From the IMG/VR virus record IMGVR_UViG_3300032893_000167, positions 1 to 38,226 of that record: a DNA stretch of 38,226 bases. One strand, given 5' to 3'. Numbering within the stretch: position 1 is the stretch's first letter; every line of letters begins with the position of its first letter. Below, in pieces: positions 3,097-11,932 of the stretch. Position numbers and translations under genes: made by a program. The notes below the pieces were generated by a model. That model was given only the letters and a program-made list of their open reading frames with translations, had not been told where the DNA came from and ran no database searches. The stretch comes from a virus.

Positions 3097-4062
3097 ATGG
3101 AGGAGCTAGTTATGGAAGGAATGCCTGTGAGCAAGCCTGGGAATAAGGTCAGTATCGCGAAGATACCGATTAAGAAAATCAGATTGAACAAAAACTCACG
3201 GCTAAACATTGACCCGGAGGAACTTGACAGACTCATGATGAGCATTAAGGAGGAAGGTCTTCTTCAGCCGATCGGTGTCGTCGAAAGTGAGAAGGGCGAC
3301 TACGAGATTTGCTACGGCAACCGCCGCTTCCTCGCGGTCAGCAAGCTGGGACTGCACACCATTCCGGCCATCGTCCATAAGAGCAACACGCAAGCCGACG
3401 TTGACATCAAAAACCTGACCGAAAATATCCAACGCCGAAACATTTCACTCCAGGAAATTGGCCGCTACGTAGGCCTCCTCGGCGAGCAAGGCATCACTCC
3501 GCGCGAAGCCGCTGTCCGCATCGGCGTCACACCTGACTACATCAACCGCTGCCTTGTCGCCTTCAATGAGATTCCTGAAGAATTCAAAAGCGACATCCAG
3601 ACACGTGTGACCGTAGGTGGCCGCCTCGGCCGACGTGGCGAACGAAACACGGACGGAAAGATTCCAGTGAGCACTGCACACGAAATTCTCATCGCCAAGA
3701 AGTCAGGCCACATCAATGCTGCGCAGGCAAAGACCCTCCTCAAGGAGGCACGTGACAACAAGAATTTCCGTACCCAGGATACGCGCCGCTACATCGCAGC
3801 CCTGAGCGCCGGCAAAAAGAATGTAGTCAATGCCATTCGCCCAATGAAGATGGTGCAACTGCACTTCCCCATGTACGTCGACGACTACGACCGCCTGCAC
3901 GATCAGGTAGTCGAAAATGGTCCGTACCGAAGCGTCGCTCAGTACATGAAAGACGTTCTCGCAGGCAGGAAATCCGGCAGCATCAAGATTGCACAGGAAA
4001 AGCTGCCAACCTACAAGCGCATGCCAAAGAAGAGGGGTAGCCGCACCCATGCCTCTGCGTAG
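3097..4062 (+). CDS. ParB/Spo0J-family protein
   Basis: The 321-aa product has a ParB N-terminal domain at about residues 20-115. It opens with I-P-I-K-K-I-R-L-N and contains a C-Y-G-N-R-R-F-L-A version of the ParB box II motif and an E-N-I-Q-R-R-N-I-S version of box III. An HTH-like segment (T-P-R-E-A-A-V-R-I-G-V-T) follows near residues 130-150. The basic C-terminus may bind DNA. ParB proteins bind centromere-like sites, use CTP, or act as regulators or nucleases. No ParA is in the window. ParB-family proteins also belong to PRTRC cassettes together with ThiF and JAB proteins, and both of those occur 4-6 kb downstream here. A second in-frame ATG at 3112 also has a ribosome site. Confidence 0.85.
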   Translation: MEELVMEGMPVSKPGNKVSIAKIPIKKIRLNKNSRLNIDPEELDRLMMSIKEEGLLQPIGVVESEKGDYEICYGNRRFLAVSKLGLHTIPAIVHKSNTQADVDIKNLTENIQRRNISLQEIGRYVGLLGEQGITPREAAVRIGVTPDYINRCLVAFNEIPEEFKSDIQTRVTVGGRLGRRGERNTDGKIPVSTAHEILIAKKSGHINAAQAKTLLKEARDNKNFRTQDTRRYIAALSAGKKNVVNAIRPMKMVQLHFPMYVDDYDRLHDQVVENGPYRSVAQYMKDVLAGRKSGSIKIAQEKLPTYKRMPKKRGSRTHASA

Positions 4063-4321
4063 CCTCGAAGAAAACCGGATCTATCAGAGGGAGTGGATAA
4101 AACGACGGCTCGCCAATGAGACTCCGGAAGAAAAGCAGGCCCGCCTCGCAAAAAGGCGGGAGTGGCGGAAGAGGACCTACGCCGCGCAGGAAAAGAAAGT
4201 GCGTGACCTCAGACACCGGGTCTTCTTGTGGTATCGGCCTGAGGACAACACACTAGAGCTAGGTCACATGGACGCGGCGTTGGTTTGGGACTGCGACTTG
4301 GTTTTGGTTGGTGAGTTATGA
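4049..4321 (+). CDS. Hypothetical highly basic helical protein, 90 aa
   Basis: The ATG at 4049 lies in the end of the ParB gene, after an AGAGGGG ribosome site at about 4031. The first two thirds are dense in Arg, Lys and Glu and should form one long charged helix; the last 25 residues are acidic and hydrophobic. I recognise no family. The overlap suggests translation coupled to the ParB-family gene, and the charge would allow nucleic-acid binding, but no motif proves it. Confidence 0.55.
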   Translation: MPLRSLEENRIYQREWIKRRLANETPEEKQARLAKRREWRKRTYAAQEKKVRDLRHRVFLWYRPEDNTLELGHMDAALVWDCDLVLVGEL

Positions 4322-4363
4322 AACGTTACCGCTGGGAAAGATGAAAACGAAGGAGAAAATGAG

Positions 4364-4744
4364 ATGAATCTATCAATGTGGCTATATCTGGTTAATGTGG
4401 TCCATAATTTGGGTTTTTATTTCACAATGATCACGGTCTTTTGTTTTGTTGGTCTGGTCATCGCGATAATTACTGCTGCCCTGATGGTCGATGCTGGTAC
4501 CAATGAAGAACAATGGAAACTTTGGAGGCAGTTTTTTGTCCCAACCATGTGTGTCTTCATTGTCTCTTCGTTTTGTTCCATCGCCACCCCGACGGAAAAG
4601 ACAATGTATCTCATGCTTGGAACCAAGGCAGCATCAGACATTGTCAATAACCCTACCGTGAAAGATGTTGGTGGCAAAGTTCTGAAGATCATCAACAAGA
4701 AACTTGACGACTTCGGGGCAGAAGATGCTCCTGAGAAAAAGTAA
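4364..4744 (+). CDS. Phage inner-membrane protein, 126 aa
   Basis: An AAGGAGA ribosome site precedes the ATG. Residues about 15-42 and 55-72 are hydrophobic enough for two membrane helices, separated by a short charged loop with two Trp. The C-terminal part (T-P-T-E-K-T-M-Y-L-M onward) is soluble and amphipathic and ends in an acidic/basic tail. I recall similar two-helix proteins with this T-P-x-E-K-x-x-Y-L signature from other phages, where they are annotated as hypothetical. It is not an evident holin. Confidence 0.65.
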   Translation: MNLSMWLYLVNVVHNLGFYFTMITVFCFVGLVIAIITAALMVDAGTNEEQWKLWRQFFVPTMCVFIVSSFCSIATPTEKTMYLMLGTKAASDIVNNPTVKDVGGKVLKIINKKLDDFGAEDAPEKK

Positions 4745-4771
4745 CGACCCGCTCGGGGAAGTGACGGAGGA

Positions 4772-5077
4772 ATGATGAGAAAATTCAGGACAAAGCCGGT
4801 GATTAAAGAGGCCTATCAATTTTTTCCCCCAGAAAACAAAATGCCTGGAAGCTGGCCTCCACTGCCTCCGGGCCTATGCGATGGGGCATGCGGCAGTTGG
4901 AGTTGTAACCGATCGCGTCCCGGAATTCACACGCTCGAAGGCACTATGTACGTTTCGCCTGGAGACTGGGTGATCAAGGGCCTTCGAGGAGAATTCTATC
5001 CTTGCAAGCCAGACATCTTTAAGGAGACCTACGAACCAGTAGAAGAAACGACCCTGCAAGGGACGTTGCCGAAATGA
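4772..5077 (+). CDS. Conserved phage protein, 101 aa
   Basis: Two consecutive ATG codons (4772 and 4775) follow a GGAGG site. The C-terminal half carries H-T-L-E-G-T-M, P-G-D-W-V-I-K-G and G-E-F-Y-P-C-K-P-D-I-F. These form the hallmark of a small protein that is widespread in phages and prophages and has no assigned function. The middle has a Cys/Trp-rich stretch (C-D-G-A-C-G-S-W-S-C) that could bind metal. The stop overlaps the next ATG (ATGA). Confidence 0.7.
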   Translation: MMRKFRTKPVIKEAYQFFPPENKMPGSWPPLPPGLCDGACGSWSCNRSRPGIHTLEGTMYVSPGDWVIKGLRGEFYPCKPDIFKETYEPVEETTLQGTLPK

Positions 5078-6311: not shown

Positions 6312-6964
6312 GCGCAGATGAGAAGCCTCGGGAGTGGTTTGTTGAAATCAACGAGGTGTTTGACGAACGTGAGCAATGCCAAAGCGGAATGGCATACAGT
6401 CAGACATGGTTAGATGAAATGGAAATGACAGGACATGGAATGGTTCGCGTCATCGAGTATTCCGCATTCGAGAAGGCGCAGGCTGAGCTGGTAGCCCTTA
6501 AAAAGCAGATAGCCTATATTTCATCGGCGCATGATTTAGAACGAGATGATTTAATACGACAACGATTCGCCATGAACGCCTCCTACGAAAACATCAAAAA
6601 ACAGCTTGAGGCTAATAATGAGGAGTATGCACTTTTAGTAGCTGAAAACAGAGATCTTCGTAGTGCGTTGGGGCATGAGCGCGCGAGACCAAAACACGCC
6701 ACGGCTCACAAATGGAAGACAGAGCGCGACGAGGCTCGGGCTGAGGTTGAGCAGCTTCAGTGTGGCATCTCAATACTGACTGATCAAATTGAAGACCACG
6801 AACATGGGTATAAGGCAATCATCGAGCGGTTGGTTGGGGCGTTGCGGATTATCGACAAGGAAGATGATCCAAAAGACCCGCGCAGATATTTAGATGCCGG
6901 TGGCATGTTATCTATCGTTCGAGAGGCCCTCGCCGAGTATAAGAAGTGGAAGGCGGGGAAGTGA
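6308..6964 (+). CDS. Hypothetical coiled-coil protein, 218 aa
   Basis: The ATG overlaps the previous stop. Residues about 55-165 are dominated by Glu, Lys, Arg, Gln and Leu in heptad-like order and should form a long coiled coil. The N-terminal 50 residues look globular, and the C-terminus has an L-D-A-G-G-M stretch followed by a helix. Similar proteins are common in phage accessory regions and have no known role. No membrane segment or enzymatic motif is visible. Confidence 0.6.
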   Translation: MSADEKPREWFVEINEVFDEREQCQSGMAYSQTWLDEMEMTGHGMVRVIEYSAFEKAQAELVALKKQIAYISSAHDLERDDLIRQRFAMNASYENIKKQLEANNEEYALLVAENRDLRSALGHERARPKHATAHKWKTERDEARAEVEQLQCGISILTDQIEDHEHGYKAIIERLVGALRIIDKEDDPKDPRRYLDAGGMLSIVREALAEYKKWKAGK

Positions 6965-7131
6965 AACTGCTGATAATCATCATTGCCTTCTCGATCAGCG
7001 GCTGCGACGCGCCCACACCAAGCGAAGAGCAGCAACTGAAAACGCTTGCACAGGAATGCATCAACATCTGTCCTAGTGGTGTCAGTAGCTTCCGCATCAC
7101 CTACAAAGACAGCGAATGCCGTTGCAAATAA
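6961..7131 (+). CDS. Small lipoprotein, 56 aa, GTG start
   Basis: A GTG at 6961 overlaps the previous stop (GTGA) after a GGCGGGGAA ribosome-site-like stretch. The N-terminus is a typical short signal: one Lys, a run of Leu/Ile, then I-S-G-C, a clear lipobox with Cys15 as the lipidation site. The mature part has four further cysteines and could be disulphide-bonded in the periplasm. It is not proline-rich as Rz1 spanins are. It may be a superinfection-exclusion or envelope protein; function is not shown. Confidence 0.55.
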   Translation: MKLLIIIIAFSISGCDAPTPSEEQQLKTLAQECINICPSGVSSFRITYKDSECRCK

Positions 7132-7193
7132 CAATCGTCATCCTCACGACAGCCTTCATGGCATGGTCCCTCTGGACTACCCTGCGTCACTGA
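7116..7193 (+). CDS. Possible 25-aa membrane peptide
   Basis: An ATG inside the end of the lipoprotein gene, in another frame, opens a 25-codon frame ending at TGA 7191-7193. Almost the entire peptide is one hydrophobic helix with Trp residues near the end and a basic C-terminus. The ribosome site is weak, so this is only a candidate. Confidence 0.3.
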   Translation: MPLQITIVILTTAFMAWSLWTTLRH

Positions 7194-7334
7194 AATAATT
7201 TGTAACATTTTAACTTGACCAATCGCCCGGCGACGGGCGACAAAGCCTAACGCGAAGTTTGTAAAAAGCAAACAAAGCTTATTTAGTTTCCCCAGCATCG
7301 GGGATGAGCCAAACCACACTAAAGGAGGGGTAAA
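7194..7334 (+). promoter_or_regulatory. Structured leader of the ubiquitin-like gene
   Basis: This 141-base non-coding stretch holds a 7-bp stem with a GCGA tetraloop (7223-7229 with 7234-7240) and a second short stem (7289-7293 with 7300-7304). It ends in AAAGGAGGGG, one of the strongest ribosome sites in the window. A TTGACC at 7215 could be a -35 box, but the base run 17 bases on (CGACAA) is not a convincing -10. A transcript start in this region is likely because the next gene has its own terminator; the exact promoter is not identified. Confidence 0.45.
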
Positions 7335-7532
7335 ATGGCTGAGGTACAAGTACAGGTCGCGGGCGGCGCGATCCAGAAAAAGGAAGCCGCAACGGTCGAA
7401 TGTCTGTCAAAGTTGGTCGGCTGCGACGGCGCCGGCTGGACTGCCACCGTCAATGGTGAGCCGCAAGAAAGCGACTACGAGTTGAGTGACTACGAATTCG
7501 TGACTTTCGCGAAAGCCGTGAAGGCCGGTTAA
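7335..7532 (+). CDS. Ubiquitin-like (beta-grasp) modifier candidate, 65 aa
   Basis: The product reads as a short beta-grasp protein. Strand 1 is V-Q-V-Q-V at residues 4-8, followed by a turn G10-G11 and a second strand. A helix around 20-28 follows, then strands at W35-V39 and at residues 54-59 after a Y-E-L-S-D-Y turn like that of ThiS and MoaD. It ends in Ala-Gly with Gly65 the last residue, so no processing is needed to expose a C-terminal glycine. Identity rests mainly on context: E2-like, JAMM and E1-like genes follow directly. It resembles in size the small protein C of PRTRC cassettes. It lies between a structured leader and a terminator, which predicts high expression. The fold assignment is inference. 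Confidence 0.65.
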   Translation: MAEVQVQVAGGAIQKKEAATVECLSKLVGCDGAGWTATVNGEPQESDYELSDYEFVTFAKAVKAG

Positions 7533-7538
7533 TTGCCT

Positions 7539-7565
7539 GGCCCCCTCCTTCTGGGGGCCTTTTTC
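7539..7565 (+). terminator. Intrinsic terminator after the ubiquitin-like gene
   Basis: GGCCCCC at 7539-7545 and GGGGGCC at 7553-7559 form a perfect 7-bp GC stem with a 7-base loop, followed by TTTTTC. This is a textbook rho-independent terminator. It lies between the modifier gene and the three enzyme genes, which have no obvious promoter in the 15 bases that follow. Readthrough at this site would therefore set the ratio of modifier to enzymes. Confidence 0.85.
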
Positions 7566-7579
7566 TTAGGGGTGCTAAA

Positions 7580-8683
7580 ATGTCCATGACAATGAAAGAA
7601 GTTCGCGAAGCTAATTATGACGTATTTTATGACTGCGAGTCGCCATCGCACGACAGTCAAATGCAGTCAGTCCTCCGTTACCTCGAAAACATTTCCCACA
7701 CGACCAACACCGACATCAGCGGTTGGAAGGTACTCGAGGTCTTTAAGAACCCGAATAGTGAGAAAGGTTTTATCCACACGGATAAGAATAAGATCAATGA
7801 GCTATTTTTTGCGGAGACTGCGCGGCTCAGGGGAACGCAAGTAGCTACAGTTGCGGAGCCGCGTCTTAAAGGCAATGCCCTATCAATTGTTACTGGTTAT
7901 CTGAAGCAACTATCTAAAGATTGGCATCGTCAAGCCCGGAGTAGTTTTGAAAGTGAGGAGGCTAAGATGCAGCACCTCTACGAGCAGTTAGATGAGTCAC
8001 GAAGTACCCTTTCAGACCTCAGAAAAATAATCAGGTTGCCACCTGAAGATCCTGCGAGGTTTGTTAATCAGCTCCAGGAACTTCTCGCAGATGATTTCTG
8101 GACACTCGATTTAGGCGACATTGGAGCTGCGCATTTTCAGTTTCAAACAAAACCAATCGTCCTTTACTACAAGAACTCTGAGCAAGCCGTAGATTTGGCA
8201 GTGCCTATGGGGCAGTTTACGGTCAGGTTGCTGTGGGGAAGAAACCACATCAGAGTACTGTGCCATTTTGACAACGTAATGACTGAAGAGCATTATCATC
8301 CGCATGTGGATTCAAATGGGATCGTCTGTTATGGCAACATGCTCGCGGATGTGGAGGAGGCGCTGCAGGAGCGGAACTACCTCAAGGCGCTTCAGCTTAC
8401 GAAGGCAGTCCTGACTAATTACTGCGATGACAATCCGTACATGCACTTGCATGATTTTGCCGAAACTTATGCGGACATGACCGGTTCGCGAACGCAGGTG
8501 CCTGAGTTGCCGCCGATGCGACTGTCATCTTCTCCGACCGATTCTGTTGGAATAGCAGCGAGAGCCCGTGCCTACTTCGGCGAAATGCCGGCAAACTTTT
8601 ATACCAGGAGCACCGCAACGGACATGACCCTAGGGCCGGGCGTAGCACTCCCTATCCCCCAAGAGGAGGAAGCCAATGATTAG
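7580..8683 (+). CDS. E2-like (UBC-fold) conjugating protein candidate
   Basis: The 367-aa product has a divergent helical N-terminal half (coiled-coil-like at about 110-170) and a UBC-like core at about 175-300. Beta strands at about 192-230 lead to H240-P241-H242-V-D-S-N-G247-I-V-C250. This matches the HPN...Cys block of eukaryotic E2 enzymes in spacing: His-Pro-x, then Gly at +7, then the active-site Cys at +10 from His. C250 is therefore the predicted thioester residue. A helix and a Pro-rich tail follow. PRTRC protein B is described as E2-like, and Bil operons also hold an E2 next to E1 and JAB genes. The long N-terminal extension could bind targets. Its end overlaps the next gene by 8 bases. 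Confidence 0.75.
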   Translation: MSMTMKEVREANYDVFYDCESPSHDSQMQSVLRYLENISHTTNTDISGWKVLEVFKNPNSEKGFIHTDKNKINELFFAETARLRGTQVATVAEPRLKGNALSIVTGYLKQLSKDWHRQARSSFESEEAKMQHLYEQLDESRSTLSDLRKIIRLPPEDPARFVNQLQELLADDFWTLDLGDIGAAHFQFQTKPIVLYYKNSEQAVDLAVPMGQFTVRLLWGRNHIRVLCHFDNVMTEEHYHPHVDSNGIVCYGNMLADVEEALQERNYLKALQLTKAVLTNYCDDNPYMHLHDFAETYADMTGSRTQVPELPPMRLSSSPTDSVGIAARARAYFGEMPANFYTRSTATDMTLGPGVALPIPQEEEAND

Positions 8684-9632
8684 TTTTAAACTAGTAATCC
8701 CAGACGCAGTCTACCAAAAGGTCATGTGGTGGGTGAATAAGAGCAGGCACGAGGTGAGCGGTTTCGGCTCCCTAGACTTCGACCCAAAGACGAGCACATT
8801 CACAGTGCGCGATGCAATCCTCCTCAAGCAGGAGGTAGGTCCAACGAGTACGGAAATCGATGCTGCTGCCCTTGGCAAGGCTATGTTTGAGCAGCGCGCA
8901 GAGCCAAATGCGCTGAAGTGGCACTGGCATTCCCATGTCGACATGAATGTTTTTTGGTCTCAGGACGACAGAACACTCATTAAGAACTTGGGCAGTCAGG
9001 GCTGGATTGTGGCGACTGTCTTCAATAAGCAGGAAGAAATGAAGTCAGCTTTTTATGGCAAGGTGAAGGCAGCTTTCGGCGAGTACGACTATGAGGAAGA
9101 AACTTTCCTCGAAGACATCGAATGTTCCGTTGAGCGCTTCATTGCTGCTGAAGTCTACAAGCCCTGGGACAAGGAGTATGATGAGAAGGTAGCCGTTGAG
9201 AGGATTAGTACCGCGATTACGGCAGATGATTGGTCAGGTTGGAGTCCGTCAAATTACGCCTCGGGGTACTACAGACGGCGCGGTTTCGTTGCGCATGCCT
9301 TCCGGCAGCCCGGCAGTCCCGATGTAGCAGGTCAGCACGACCACGAAGGTCTTCGTTATTCTTACATGTACCAGCGTTGGGTCTACCATCCCTGTTTTGA
9401 TGAGGCAGTCACTACGCAGGAGCAGCTCATGGAAGCTATTTTTACCATGGACGATGATGAGTGTTCTGCGGCCTGGAACTACTGCGCCAACCGGAAACAG
9501 GAAAAACGTTTTCAGGAGGCCTACATCAAGTGCCTCGACTTGGCAGAGGCCGCATATGAGGAAAGTGTCGTTGATGCAGAGGAAGTGAAGCGGCAGCGAG
9601 ATACTACCTACTTGCCTGGAGGTGTCGGATGA
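8676..9632 (+). CDS. JAB/MPN-domain metalloprotease (JAMM deubiquitinase-like)
   Basis: The 318-aa product has a complete JAMM motif: Glu26 in an H-E-V-S-G-F-G strand, then H85-S86-H87, seven residues, S95, two residues and D98. These are the zinc ligands and catalytic Glu of JAB isopeptidases, so activity is predicted. Such enzymes cut ubiquitin-like proteins from targets or trim their C-termini. Residues about 130-318 are an extra region of unknown fold with a Tyr/Arg-rich centre. The ATG lies inside the end of the E2-like gene behind a GAGGAGG site, and the stop overlaps the E1-like start (ATGA), so the three proteins should be made together. No NlpC/P60 domain is attached, unlike lambda-type tail proteins. 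Confidence 0.9.
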   Translation: MISFKLVIPDAVYQKVMWWVNKSRHEVSGFGSLDFDPKTSTFTVRDAILLKQEVGPTSTEIDAAALGKAMFEQRAEPNALKWHWHSHVDMNVFWSQDDRTLIKNLGSQGWIVATVFNKQEEMKSAFYGKVKAAFGEYDYEEETFLEDIECSVERFIAAEVYKPWDKEYDEKVAVERISTAITADDWSGWSPSNYASGYYRRRGFVAHAFRQPGSPDVAGQHDHEGLRYSYMYQRWVYHPCFDEAVTTQEQLMEAIFTMDDDECSAAWNYCANRKQEKRFQEAYIKCLDLAEAAYEESVVDAEEVKRQRDTTYLPGGVG

Positions 9633-10315
9633 GCAGGCATGAGCATTTGACGAGGCAGCTTGAAATCATTCCCCTCGAGTGCCTGACGCAAAAAATCACC
9701 ATCATCGGCGCCGGTGCCATCGGCTCCTTTGCAGCGCTGAGCCTTGCAAAGATGGGCTTCGCTGACTTGCAGGTGTGGGACTTCGATGAGGTGTCAGTCG
9801 AAAACATGAATTGCCAGTGGTATCGGTTTGCCGACATCGGAAAACCAAAGGTGTTGGCCCTCGAGGCACTCATCAAGGATTTTACGGGCGTGGAAATTGA
9901 GGCGCGAAATGAACGCTACGAGACGCAAGACCTCAAGGGCATCCTTATCACTGCTGTCGACTCTATGGCCGTCCGTAAGCAGATTTTTGAACGGCTGAAG
10001 GCAGGCAACTACGGAGTGAATTGGCTCATTGATCCGCGCATGGCAAGTGAGGCAGCTCTTCAGTATGTCATCAACCCGTGGGACAGAAGGGACCGCGAAA
10101 CCTACGAGAAGGTCCTCTACACGGACGCTCACGCAGTCGCAGAACGTTGCACAGCGAAGGCAACTATGTACACGGCAACGATGATCGCTGGCTACGTTGC
10201 GAAGGCAGTTAAAGACATCGTGACCAAGAAGCCATACGCCCGCGTCACTCATTGGAACATTGCTGACAACCACTTACAAAACTGGACCAAGGAAACCTTG
10301 CGAGCCGAAGCCTGA
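9629..10315 (+). CDS. ThiF/E1-like adenylating enzyme
   Basis: The 228-aa product has the Rossmann nucleotide loop G27-A-G-A-I-G32-S and D51-F-D53 at the end of strand 2. E58-N-M-N then Q63 fit the E1 metal/ATP block, except that the usual Arg of N-R-Q is Cys62. D-I-G-K-P-K at 69-74 and a D111 also match the family. A single C174 in E-R-C-T-A-K is a candidate catalytic Cys. No CxxC zinc pairs are present, so this is a minimal adenylation domain. E1-like enzymes activate the C-terminal glycine of a modifier with ATP. Thiamin or molybdopterin roles are unlikely because no sulphur-carrier pathway genes are nearby, whereas E2-like and JAMM genes are. Confidence 0.9.
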   Translation: MSRHEHLTRQLEIIPLECLTQKITIIGAGAIGSFAALSLAKMGFADLQVWDFDEVSVENMNCQWYRFADIGKPKVLALEALIKDFTGVEIEARNERYETQDLKGILITAVDSMAVRKQIFERLKAGNYGVNWLIDPRMASEAALQYVINPWDRRDRETYEKVLYTDAHAVAERCTAKATMYTATMIAGYVAKAVKDIVTKKPYARVTHWNIADNHLQNWTKETLRAEA

Positions 10316-10357: not shown

Positions 10358-10786
10358 ATGGCACTTCAAGACGTCATCAACGCGCAGATTCCCGTTTACC
10401 AAAACGGCGTGGTCGGCGTTGTTACCCAGGTGATCACGAATTCTTACAATCAGGGTTTGCAAGATCAGGCTTCTGCTGACGGAAGTCAGACGAGTCCCGC
10501 TGATGCTGCGACAATCTCAGCCCTGCAAACTCAGGTCGCACAGCTTCAGGCACAAGATGCTTCTGATGTTGCTGCCGGTCAGGCTGCCTTGGCATCTGCC
10601 AACAGCCAGATCGCAGCTCTTCAGTCGCAACTCAGCGCATTGCAAGCTCAAGACGCTGCCGATCAGGCCGTCATTCAGGGTTTTCAAAACTCTGTTGCCG
10701 GTTTGCAAGCAGCCCTCAACCAGCTCCAAGCAATTATTTCTCCGGCGCCTGCCCCGGCTCCGGTGACATCCCAAGCCAAGAAGTAG
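10358..10786 (+). CDS. Coiled-coil protein with heptad repeats, 142 aa
   Basis: After about 35 ordinary residues and a short Ser/Asp-rich linker, residues about 50-125 are a regular Ala/Leu/Gln coiled coil. The block L-Q-A-Q-D-A occurs twice about 36 residues apart. The C-terminus is a Pro/Ala tail ending in two Lys. It resembles oligomerising stalk segments of phage fibres or accessory virion proteins, but no family is clear. It follows the E1-like gene by 42 bases and has its own leader, so it may be co-expressed with the ubiquitin-like cassette or be a separate virion-type gene. Confidence 0.6.
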   Translation: MALQDVINAQIPVYQNGVVGVVTQVITNSYNQGLQDQASADGSQTSPADAATISALQTQVAQLQAQDASDVAAGQAALASANSQIAALQSQLSALQAQDAADQAVIQGFQNSVAGLQAALNQLQAIISPAPAPAPVTSQAKK

Positions 10787-10802: not shown

Positions 10803-10829
10803 CCTCCGAAGGCTAATCACCTTCGGGGG
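10803..10829 (+). promoter_or_regulatory. Hairpin overlapping the ribosome site of the GT9-like gene
   Basis: CCTCCGAAGG (10803-10812) pairs with CCTTCGGGGG (10820-10829) over 10 bp with one G-U pair and a 7-base loop. The right arm supplies the GGGGG of the ribosome site for ATG 10838. No T tract follows. It may end some transcripts or limit translation of the next gene. Confidence 0.55.
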
Positions 10830-10837
10830 TGAGACAC

Positions 10838-11932
10838 ATGAAGTCTTTCAAAGTTACGACGCCACCTAAGCTTCGTGAAAATGCAGACAAGAAGGTTGTG
10901 TTAGGTCCTGAGCACGGTTTTCGGCCGGGCACTGAGGTTACGACTGCGCCGATGTACTTCTTTCTGAACGCCGGCGGAGTCGGCGATTACATCAACTACA
11001 TGGCGGCAATTCTTTGGAATGCGGCAAACCTCCCGTGGCTTCACGGTACCGTTTTTGTCTCCTCCTTCTTGGTCGAGTTCTGTTCATACCTCCTTAAGCC
11101 ATTTCCTAACTGGAAGTGCCTCTCCGGTGAGCGCGTGCAGATGGAAACGGATGTTTGTTTTGCAGGTCCCGAGCTGAAGTTGGGGACTGGTCAGGTGATT
11201 AATCACCAGCTCCTTAATGCGACGGGCGCTCATCTGACGACCCTCGGTTTCGCCTACTATTCAAACATGACGCCGGCCCCTGCTGATGCGACCCTTCCTT
11301 ACGTGAGCTTCCCGCTGAAGCGCGTCCGCTTTGAGCTGCGGGACAAGGTGGGGAAGTATGTTGTCTTCACTCCGGGTGCAGTTACTCCGGCCCGTGCAAC
11401 TTACGGCCGTCACCTTAACCCCCTCATTGAGTGGGTGGTATCGCAGGGATACTTACCGGTCTTCCTCGGCAAGTCTGAGGTGACGCCGGACCTTGATCCG
11501 GTCTTCGCAGATGACATTGCCTGGGGCCTCGGCCTGGACCTCCGAAACAAGACGACCATCATGGAGGCCGCAGCAATTCTTCAATACTCAGCCGCAGTGG
11601 TCGGTCTGGACAATGGCCTCCTTCACCTAGCCGCTTGCACGGATGCAAATGTGGTCTTCGCCTACAACATCGTGGGCCCGAAGAACCGGGCGCCACGCCG
11701 GCACCCCTCCGTAAAAGGCGGCACATGGCACATCAACCTGACTGACCGGGACCTTCACTGCAACAACTGCCAGGACAAGTGGAAGCTCCTCATCAACCAC
11801 AACTTTCATTCGTGTTACTATGTGGATAAGGGTGTGGATAAGCAGCCGAAGTGTGTGGACATGCTCTTTGCGGATGGAGCCGCCCGCTTTAAGGGCGCCT
11901 TGACTGAGGCCTTTGCCCGAGGGCAGACTTAG
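10838..11932 (+). CDS. GT9-like (heptosyltransferase-type, GT-B) glycosyltransferase
   Basis: The start ATG 10838 follows GGGGGTGAG; an in-frame GTG at 10829 is less likely because it lies in the ribosome site. The 364-aa product has a GT-B pattern. The N-terminal domain holds a glycine-rich G-G-V-G-D loop near residue 45. A C-terminal domain starts near residue 170 with V-V-F-T-P-G and then has P-V-F-L-G-K-S-E. Near residue 255 a V-G-L-D-N-G-L-L-H-L-A block corresponds to the donor-binding block of ADP-heptose transferases. A Cys-rich segment (C-N-N-C) follows. The probable role is sugar transfer to a surface glycan or phage molecule. Together with the genes at 1291 and 2150 it suggests glycan modification. 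Confidence 0.75.
   Translation: MKSFKVTTPPKLRENADKKVVLGPEHGFRPGTEVTTAPMYFFLNAGGVGDYINYMAAILWNAANLPWLHGTVFVSSFLVEFCSYLLKPFPNWKCLSGERVQMETDVCFAGPELKLGTGQVINHQLLNATGAHLTTLGFAYYSNMTPAPADATLPYVSFPLKRVRFELRDKVGKYVVFTPGAVTPARATYGRHLNPLIEWVVSQGYLPVFLGKSEVTPDLDPVFADDIAWGLGLDLRNKTTIMEAAAILQYSAAVVGLDNGLLHLAACTDANVVFAYNIVGPKNRAPRRHPSVKGGTWHINLTDRDLHCNNCQDKWKLLINHNFHSCYYVDKGVDKQPKCVDMLFADGAARFKGALTEAFARGQT

Follow-up and report, generated by a model that had tools for sequence, protein, structure and literature searches.

We found that a tailed phage carries four consecutive genes which together probably encode a reversible ubiquitin-like conjugation system, a reading to which we assign a probability of roughly 0.78. 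The genes lie at 7335-10315, all on the + strand, of the IMG/VR virus contig IMGVR_UViG_3300032893_000167, whose whole 38,226 bases were analysed and are called the window here. They encode, in this order, a ubiquitin-like modifier (Ubl), a protein resembling conjugating enzymes (E2), a JAB/JAMM isopeptidase and a ThiF protein resembling activating enzymes (E1), and are referred to as the cassette. The origin from a tailed phage was confirmed by genes for a portal/head-tail adaptor, a major head protein, a DNA polymerase and Sak4. We infer the chemistry, transfer order, timing and target of the system.

An earlier interpretation made from the letters of the window (the sequence-only reading) had placed four consecutive genes here, the last three overlapping each other. 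When open reading frames (ORFs) were re-called, the four genes were recovered at the same coordinates, with overlaps of 8 nt between E2 and JAB and 4 nt between JAB and ThiF. The modifier ORF is separated from the E2 ORF by a 47-nt gap with a strong terminator inside. The features are as follows.

7335..7532, + strand: ubiquitin-like modifier, 65 aa, beta-grasp, C-terminus ...AKAVKAG, with a strong Shine-Dalgarno sequence (AAAGGAGGGG) upstream
7539..7567, + strand: intrinsic terminator between the modifier and enzyme genes, 7 G-C pairs, -16 kcal/mol, then TTTTTCTT
7580..8683, + strand: E2-like conjugating enzyme, 367 aa; helical/coiled-coil N-terminal part, UBC core at about 158-300, disordered tail
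8297..8335, + strand: E2 catalytic motif, H240-P241-H242...C250-Y-G252
8676..9632, + strand: JAB/JAMM isopeptidase, 318 aa; Prok-JAB below cut-off, JAMM motif
8853..8969, + strand: JAMM residues E60, H85-S-H87, S95 and D98
9629..10315, + strand: ThiF/E1-like activating enzyme, 228 aa, single adenylation domain, PF00899
10148..10150, + strand: predicted E1 catalytic cysteine C174, in ERCTAK; kept in 56 of 56 loci

The AlphaFold model of the modifier, built with 22 sequences, was a confident beta-grasp with a predicted local distance difference test score (pLDDT) of 90.9, and its Foldseek matches included MoaD, SAMP1, ubiquitin and ISG15. The profile of the modifier family matched SAMP2 (5lda_B) over the whole length with E=1.8e-7; single-sequence Pfam and PADLOC searches of the modifier gave nothing significant. 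The C-terminus was K-A-G in the window and K-G-G, K-G-N or S-G-G/A in relatives. Two types of modifier were treated separately, since a MAFFT alignment of four together misaligned the short window Ubl against the long crAss-type proteins. The crAss/Fpv-type modifiers (L157, L156, L159, L004, L003) have a conserved second region past KSG (in crAss, SR.EAY..IK..GLQ...FGKNFT). This suggests that modifiers of the crAss/Fpv type are made as precursors, which the JAMM protein would cleave.

For the E2-like protein, the AlphaFold model has a UBC-like core spanning roughly residues 158-300, where the pLDDT of individual blocks is about 79-96. Nearly all of the top 50 Foldseek matches in the PDB were E2-fold proteins, with probability up to 0.98 and a best E of about 0.015, and the family profile aligned weakly with eukaryotic UBC E2s at positions 199-264 (PDB-profile E about 0.02-0.4). 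Of 26 family members, two gave a weak sequence match to UQ_con, the better one at 0.014. Single-sequence Pfam search of the E2 returned nothing significant, only VPS53_C (0.043) and YqhG (0.16), both far below cut-off, and the PADLOC search also gave nothing significant. Across 26 divergent E2s, whose mean column identity was 13%, H240, P241, C250 and G252 were the only fully invariant columns, and by this conservation they are the predicted equivalent of the HPN-Cys site of E2s.

About a third of the cassette E2s (14/43: L010, L011, L013, L014, L015, L023, L029, L033, L036, L037, L042, L043, L045 and L081; also L155) end in CxxC clusters with up to 45 cysteines, resembling RING/treble-clef zinc fingers. 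Shuffled E2 tails gave 7.7 on average and 11 at maximum, against the real 14. The window E2 has no such tail. It is possible that these tails are built-in E3 modules.

The JAB protein matched Pfam PF14464 (Prok-JAB) with E 4e-4 and 20.6 bits, under the gathering score of 25; the JAB of a relative (L004) scored 23.5 bits. The JAMM motif (E...HxH...S..D) was complete in the window JAB, and its residues were invariant in alignment A2. In Flavobacterium phage Fpv1 (L003), a group I intron at 3928-4958 interrupts the JAB gene just ahead of the HSH codons. The intron matched Rfam RF00028 at 43.4 bits (E 2.6e-9), slightly short of the gathering score of 50, and holds a LAGLIDADG-like ORF on the minus strand, and the JAB gene of Fpv3 (L049) is uninterrupted.

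ThiF matched PF00899 clearly, with E=2.1e-22 and 79.9 bits against a gathering score of 28.1. Nine of its residues (G27, G29, D51, D53, N59, K74, D111, R137 and C174) were found in all 56 non-redundant loci. The sequence-only reading had described the four products as a small beta-grasp protein with a terminal glycine, a UBC-type protein with an HPH...Cys block, a JAB/MPN protein with a full JAMM motif and a ThiF/E1-like enzyme. Each description was borne out: the first by the agreement of AlphaFold, Foldseek and the SAMP2 profile, the second by the UBC core in AlphaFold and Foldseek with invariant H240 and C250, the third by the presence of every JAMM residue, and the fourth by PF00899 with invariant ATP-site residues and C174. 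The occurrence of the whole set in one phage, also proposed there, was confirmed and then extended to many phages, and the catalytic residues were kept even in very divergent relatives.

Relatives were gathered by viral-contig scans and one genome scan, using ThiF and family alignments. Searches of 50,697 phage records with the locus (blastn) and with the window E2 and JAB (tblastn) gave no match, and one ThiF query matched about 80 of the 50,697. None of 72,556 plasmids matched one ThiF and one JAB query. The viral-contig scan yielded 80 ThiF loci. A JAB ORF was present in the same locus for 90 of 93 ThiF-family ORFs, nearly always adjacent (a few loci being duplicate fetches of one contig). 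Among the 56 non-redundant cassette loci, the JAMM motif was present in 55. The strict E2 motif (H[PSY]H...CxG) was present in 42, or in about 53 counting relaxed variants or a second ORF read by eye. The modifier hidden Markov model matched in 40, and about 13 further loci had the tailed crAss/Fpv-type modifier (about 53 in total). The genes occurred in the orders Ubl-E2-JAB-ThiF, E2-JAB-ThiF-Ubl, Ubl-ThiF-JAB-E2 and Ubl-E2-ThiF-JAB, and the set persisted throughout. In a tree that does not include PRTRC or Bil sequences, 88 cassette ThiFs were placed apart from 34 other E1-like proteins with support of 0.93.

Cultured Flavobacterium phages Fpv1-21 (Fipvunavirus) have the cassette, and crAss001-type Crassvirales have all four genes, annotated as 'thiamine biosynthesis protein' and 'metalloprotease domain'. 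All four genes were also found in 31 of 36 further crAss-like contigs; in 3 of the 5 incomplete ones, ThiF alone was found, and it matched no more than about 320 bases from where the contig or locus starts. The ratio of nonsynonymous to synonymous substitution rates (dN/dS) was 0.14-0.37 across all four crAss genes, with distant pairs near saturation, and the cassette of the crAss clade is under purifying selection. Xanthomonas jumbo phages encode a modifier ending in KASGG, an 892-aa E2 and ThiF, and an Erwinia phage was seen only as a ThiF match. The cassette contigs from the genome scan came from metagenome-assembled or uncultured genomes, except one that is short and belongs to a named Ruminococcaceae assembly (L122).

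A terminator-like hairpin was found in the modifier-E2 gap of 22 of 36 cassettes and in 23 of 214 other same-strand gaps of the same loci (Fisher p=1.9e-10), where some of the loci are related to one another and the control gaps come from mechanical calls. This terminator, together with the strong ribosome site of the modifier, makes it plausible that the modifier is produced in excess over the enzymes, which is what a consumed tag would need.

The sequence-only reading had set the cassette beside virion and lysis genes; this did not hold. On the + strand of the window, the cassette is accompanied by ParB, a nuclease, Sak4, a DUF669 (SSB-like) protein, PolA and a DUF3987 primase-like gene; those virion genes that were identified lie beyond 22442 on the opposite strand. 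For other cassettes, 119 neighbour proteins were considered: the majority had no known function, and the recognised functions were mostly primase, Sak4, exonuclease and UDG, with few terminase matches. The crAss001-type cassette sits in the replication module with primase on one side and UDG on the other. The middle genes of crAss001 have replication functions and are switched on at 10-30 min (PMC8375218). From this position, the cassette is probably expressed with middle (replication) genes, and the proteins it would tag during takeover are most likely those of the host or of the replication machinery, and less likely those of the virion.

In the proposed cycle, ThiF would adenylate the C-terminus of the modifier and then take the modifier onto C174. 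The E2-like protein would accept it on C250, with H240 in the role of the HPN histidine, and pass it to lysines of target proteins. These may be recruited through the N-terminal helical region of the E2, or through the fused zinc-binding tail in about a third of relatives. The JAMM protein would remove the tag and, in relatives with a C-terminal modifier tail, would also mature the modifier. The terminator past the modifier gene would set the level of the modifier above that of the enzyme.

Conjugation activity of the cassette is likely, as judged from sequences and structure models. The reading is supported because the parts were confirmed, their residues are conserved, the set persists despite changes of order, and the dN/dS values, the terminator bias and the replication neighbours agree with it. 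Several observations weigh against it. The modifier ends in AG, and in GN in many relatives, instead of the canonical GG. The overall pLDDT of the window E2 model is a moderate 77, and its Foldseek E-values were never below 0.001, with long extra parts in the query. The Xanthomonas jumbo phages have no adjacent JAB gene, and the expression timing in the window phage is deduced from gene position only. The wider claim is that this is a phage-specific lineage of full Ubl signalling, spread widely over unrelated phages, crAss-like ones among them, which during replication tags host or phage replication proteins and in which some E2s have E3-like zinc fingers; we hold it to be about an even bet.

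The sequence-only reading had likened the cassette to Bil and PRTRC systems. The shared parts stood; the cassette does not have the defining features of the two systems that were compared below. BilABCD, which tags phage tails (PMC11354881, PMC12135933), has the modifier, E2, JAMM and E1 in identical order. However, BilA has two Ubl domains, BilD has inactive and active adenylation domains plus a Cys domain, and BilB has a CEHH motif with the His after the Cys (PMC11354881), whereas the window modifier is one domain of 65 aa, its E1 a single ThiF domain of 228 aa, and the His-Pro-His of its E2, which includes the invariant H240, precedes the Cys. Bil is also a bacterial anti-phage system, whereas the cassette is phage-carried. 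Assignment to Bil was rejected on the single Ubl domain, the single E1 domain and the His before the E2 cysteine.

PRTRC systems (class 6d of Iyer et al. 2006) also have separate Ubl, E2, JAB and E1 genes, and a ParB/Noc-like protein is encoded at 3097-4062 of the window, about 3 kb upstream of the cassette, with no partition partner identified. ThiF scored 53.9 and 52.4 bits against TIGR03736 (PRTRC_ThiF, cut-off 144.75), the NCBIfam models of PRTRC proteins A, B and C did not match the window JAB, E2 and Ubl, and the window ParB scored 48 bits against PRTRC ParB (cut-off 278.6), with generic ParB/Noc fitting better. With all PRTRC models below cut-off or absent, this assignment was rejected as well. 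Class 6d E2s are without the classical His (PMC1779556), whereas cassette E2s keep it, and no plasmid homologue of the cassette was found. The cassette would work like the Bil and PRTRC systems yet is a member of neither.

Archaeal SAMP systems (SAMP2, UbaA, JAMM1) are similar in the modifier profile, the JAMM deconjugase and the single-domain E1. SAMP systems are not known to have an E2, whereas nearly every phage cassette has one. The type II CBASS protein Cap2, an E1-E2 fusion, and Bub operons share the E1, E2 and JAB chemistry; unlike Cap2, the cassette has separate E1 and E2 and no cyclase was seen, and the similarity, found with PADLOC E1-E2 models, is confined to the ThiF core. Lambda tail genes I and K (TAPI Ub-like, TAPK JAB-NlpC) are a phage-encoded Ubl and JAB pair; they differ in having no E1 or E2, a place in the tail-assembly module and an NlpC domain (PMC1779556). 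In the passages of Iyer et al. that were consulted, this lambda-type pair is the sole context in which phages appear.

The four parts and order shared with BilABCD, a tagger of phage tails, could mean that the cassette is a Bil-like weapon with which its phage excludes superinfecting or competing phages by tagging their virion proteins. We consider this unlikely: the cassette lies with replication genes, its domain make-up is unlike Bil, and crAss001-type phages are described as incapable of lysogeny (PMC8375218), so that exclusion would gain them less. A slightly less probable alternative is counter-defence, in which the phage JAMM protein strips the tags of host defences (Bil, Bub or CBASS) and its three companions serve as decoys to block the host cascade. 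Phage tail proteins are tagged by host Bil, and JAMM deSAMPylases have been proposed for that role in Borg elements (PMC12660748); however, the completeness of the set, the invariant E1/E2 catalytic residues and the purifying selection favour activity over decoys.

A little further behind, and doubtful, is sulfur transfer, in which ThiF would make a thiocarboxylate of the modifier as donor to tRNA, a nucleobase or a cofactor, and the JAMM protein would trim the C-terminus as in thioquinolobactin/PDTC-type pathways. The modifier family resembles SAMP2, ThiS, MoaD and TtuB, the E1 models closest to the cassette ThiF are of the ThiF and PRTRC types, and operons of JAMM, sulfur carrier and ThiF are described (PMC1779556). 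Nearly all cassettes, however, encode an E2-like protein in which His and Cys are conserved, a component that sulfur carriers can do without, and no rhodanese, sulfurtransferase or thiolation partner was found among the scanned window proteins or the commonest neighbour families. A degenerate or peptide-modifying remnant with no protein-tagging function, at which the low Pfam scores for all but one of the four proteins might hint, is highly improbable given catalytic residues conserved at very low identity, a set kept under order change and dN/dS of 0.14-0.37.

Bacterial ubiquitin-like conjugation has so far been known as defence (Bil, CBASS) or from uncharacterised operons; the conjugation cassette described here is phage-owned. 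A search of the open literature, with subscription papers and preprints outside it, turned up no account of phages with an E1-E2-JAB-Ubl set. If the cassette is active, phages, including some of the most abundant gut viruses, tag proteins post-translationally during takeover, and the crAss001-type genes labelled 'thiamine biosynthesis protein ThiF' are mis-annotated; viruses of bacteria would then run a ubiquitin-like code of their own. The reading is directly testable in cultured phages that have the cassette, namely crAss001, grown on Bacteroides intestinalis, and the Flavobacterium phages Fpv1-21.

Several other genes were seen near the cassettes. In the window, 10358-10786, just past ThiF, encodes a coiled-coil protein with a weak match to ATG16 (4e-4, below cut-off), which is probably coiled-coil similarity only. 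A heptosyltransferase-like glycosyltransferase (GT9) is encoded at 10829-11932 and a TylF-like methyltransferase at 2150-2740. In a human faecal phage contig (L158), a reverse-transcriptase-like ORF with a YADD motif lies at 6888-8225, directly downstream of the cassette.

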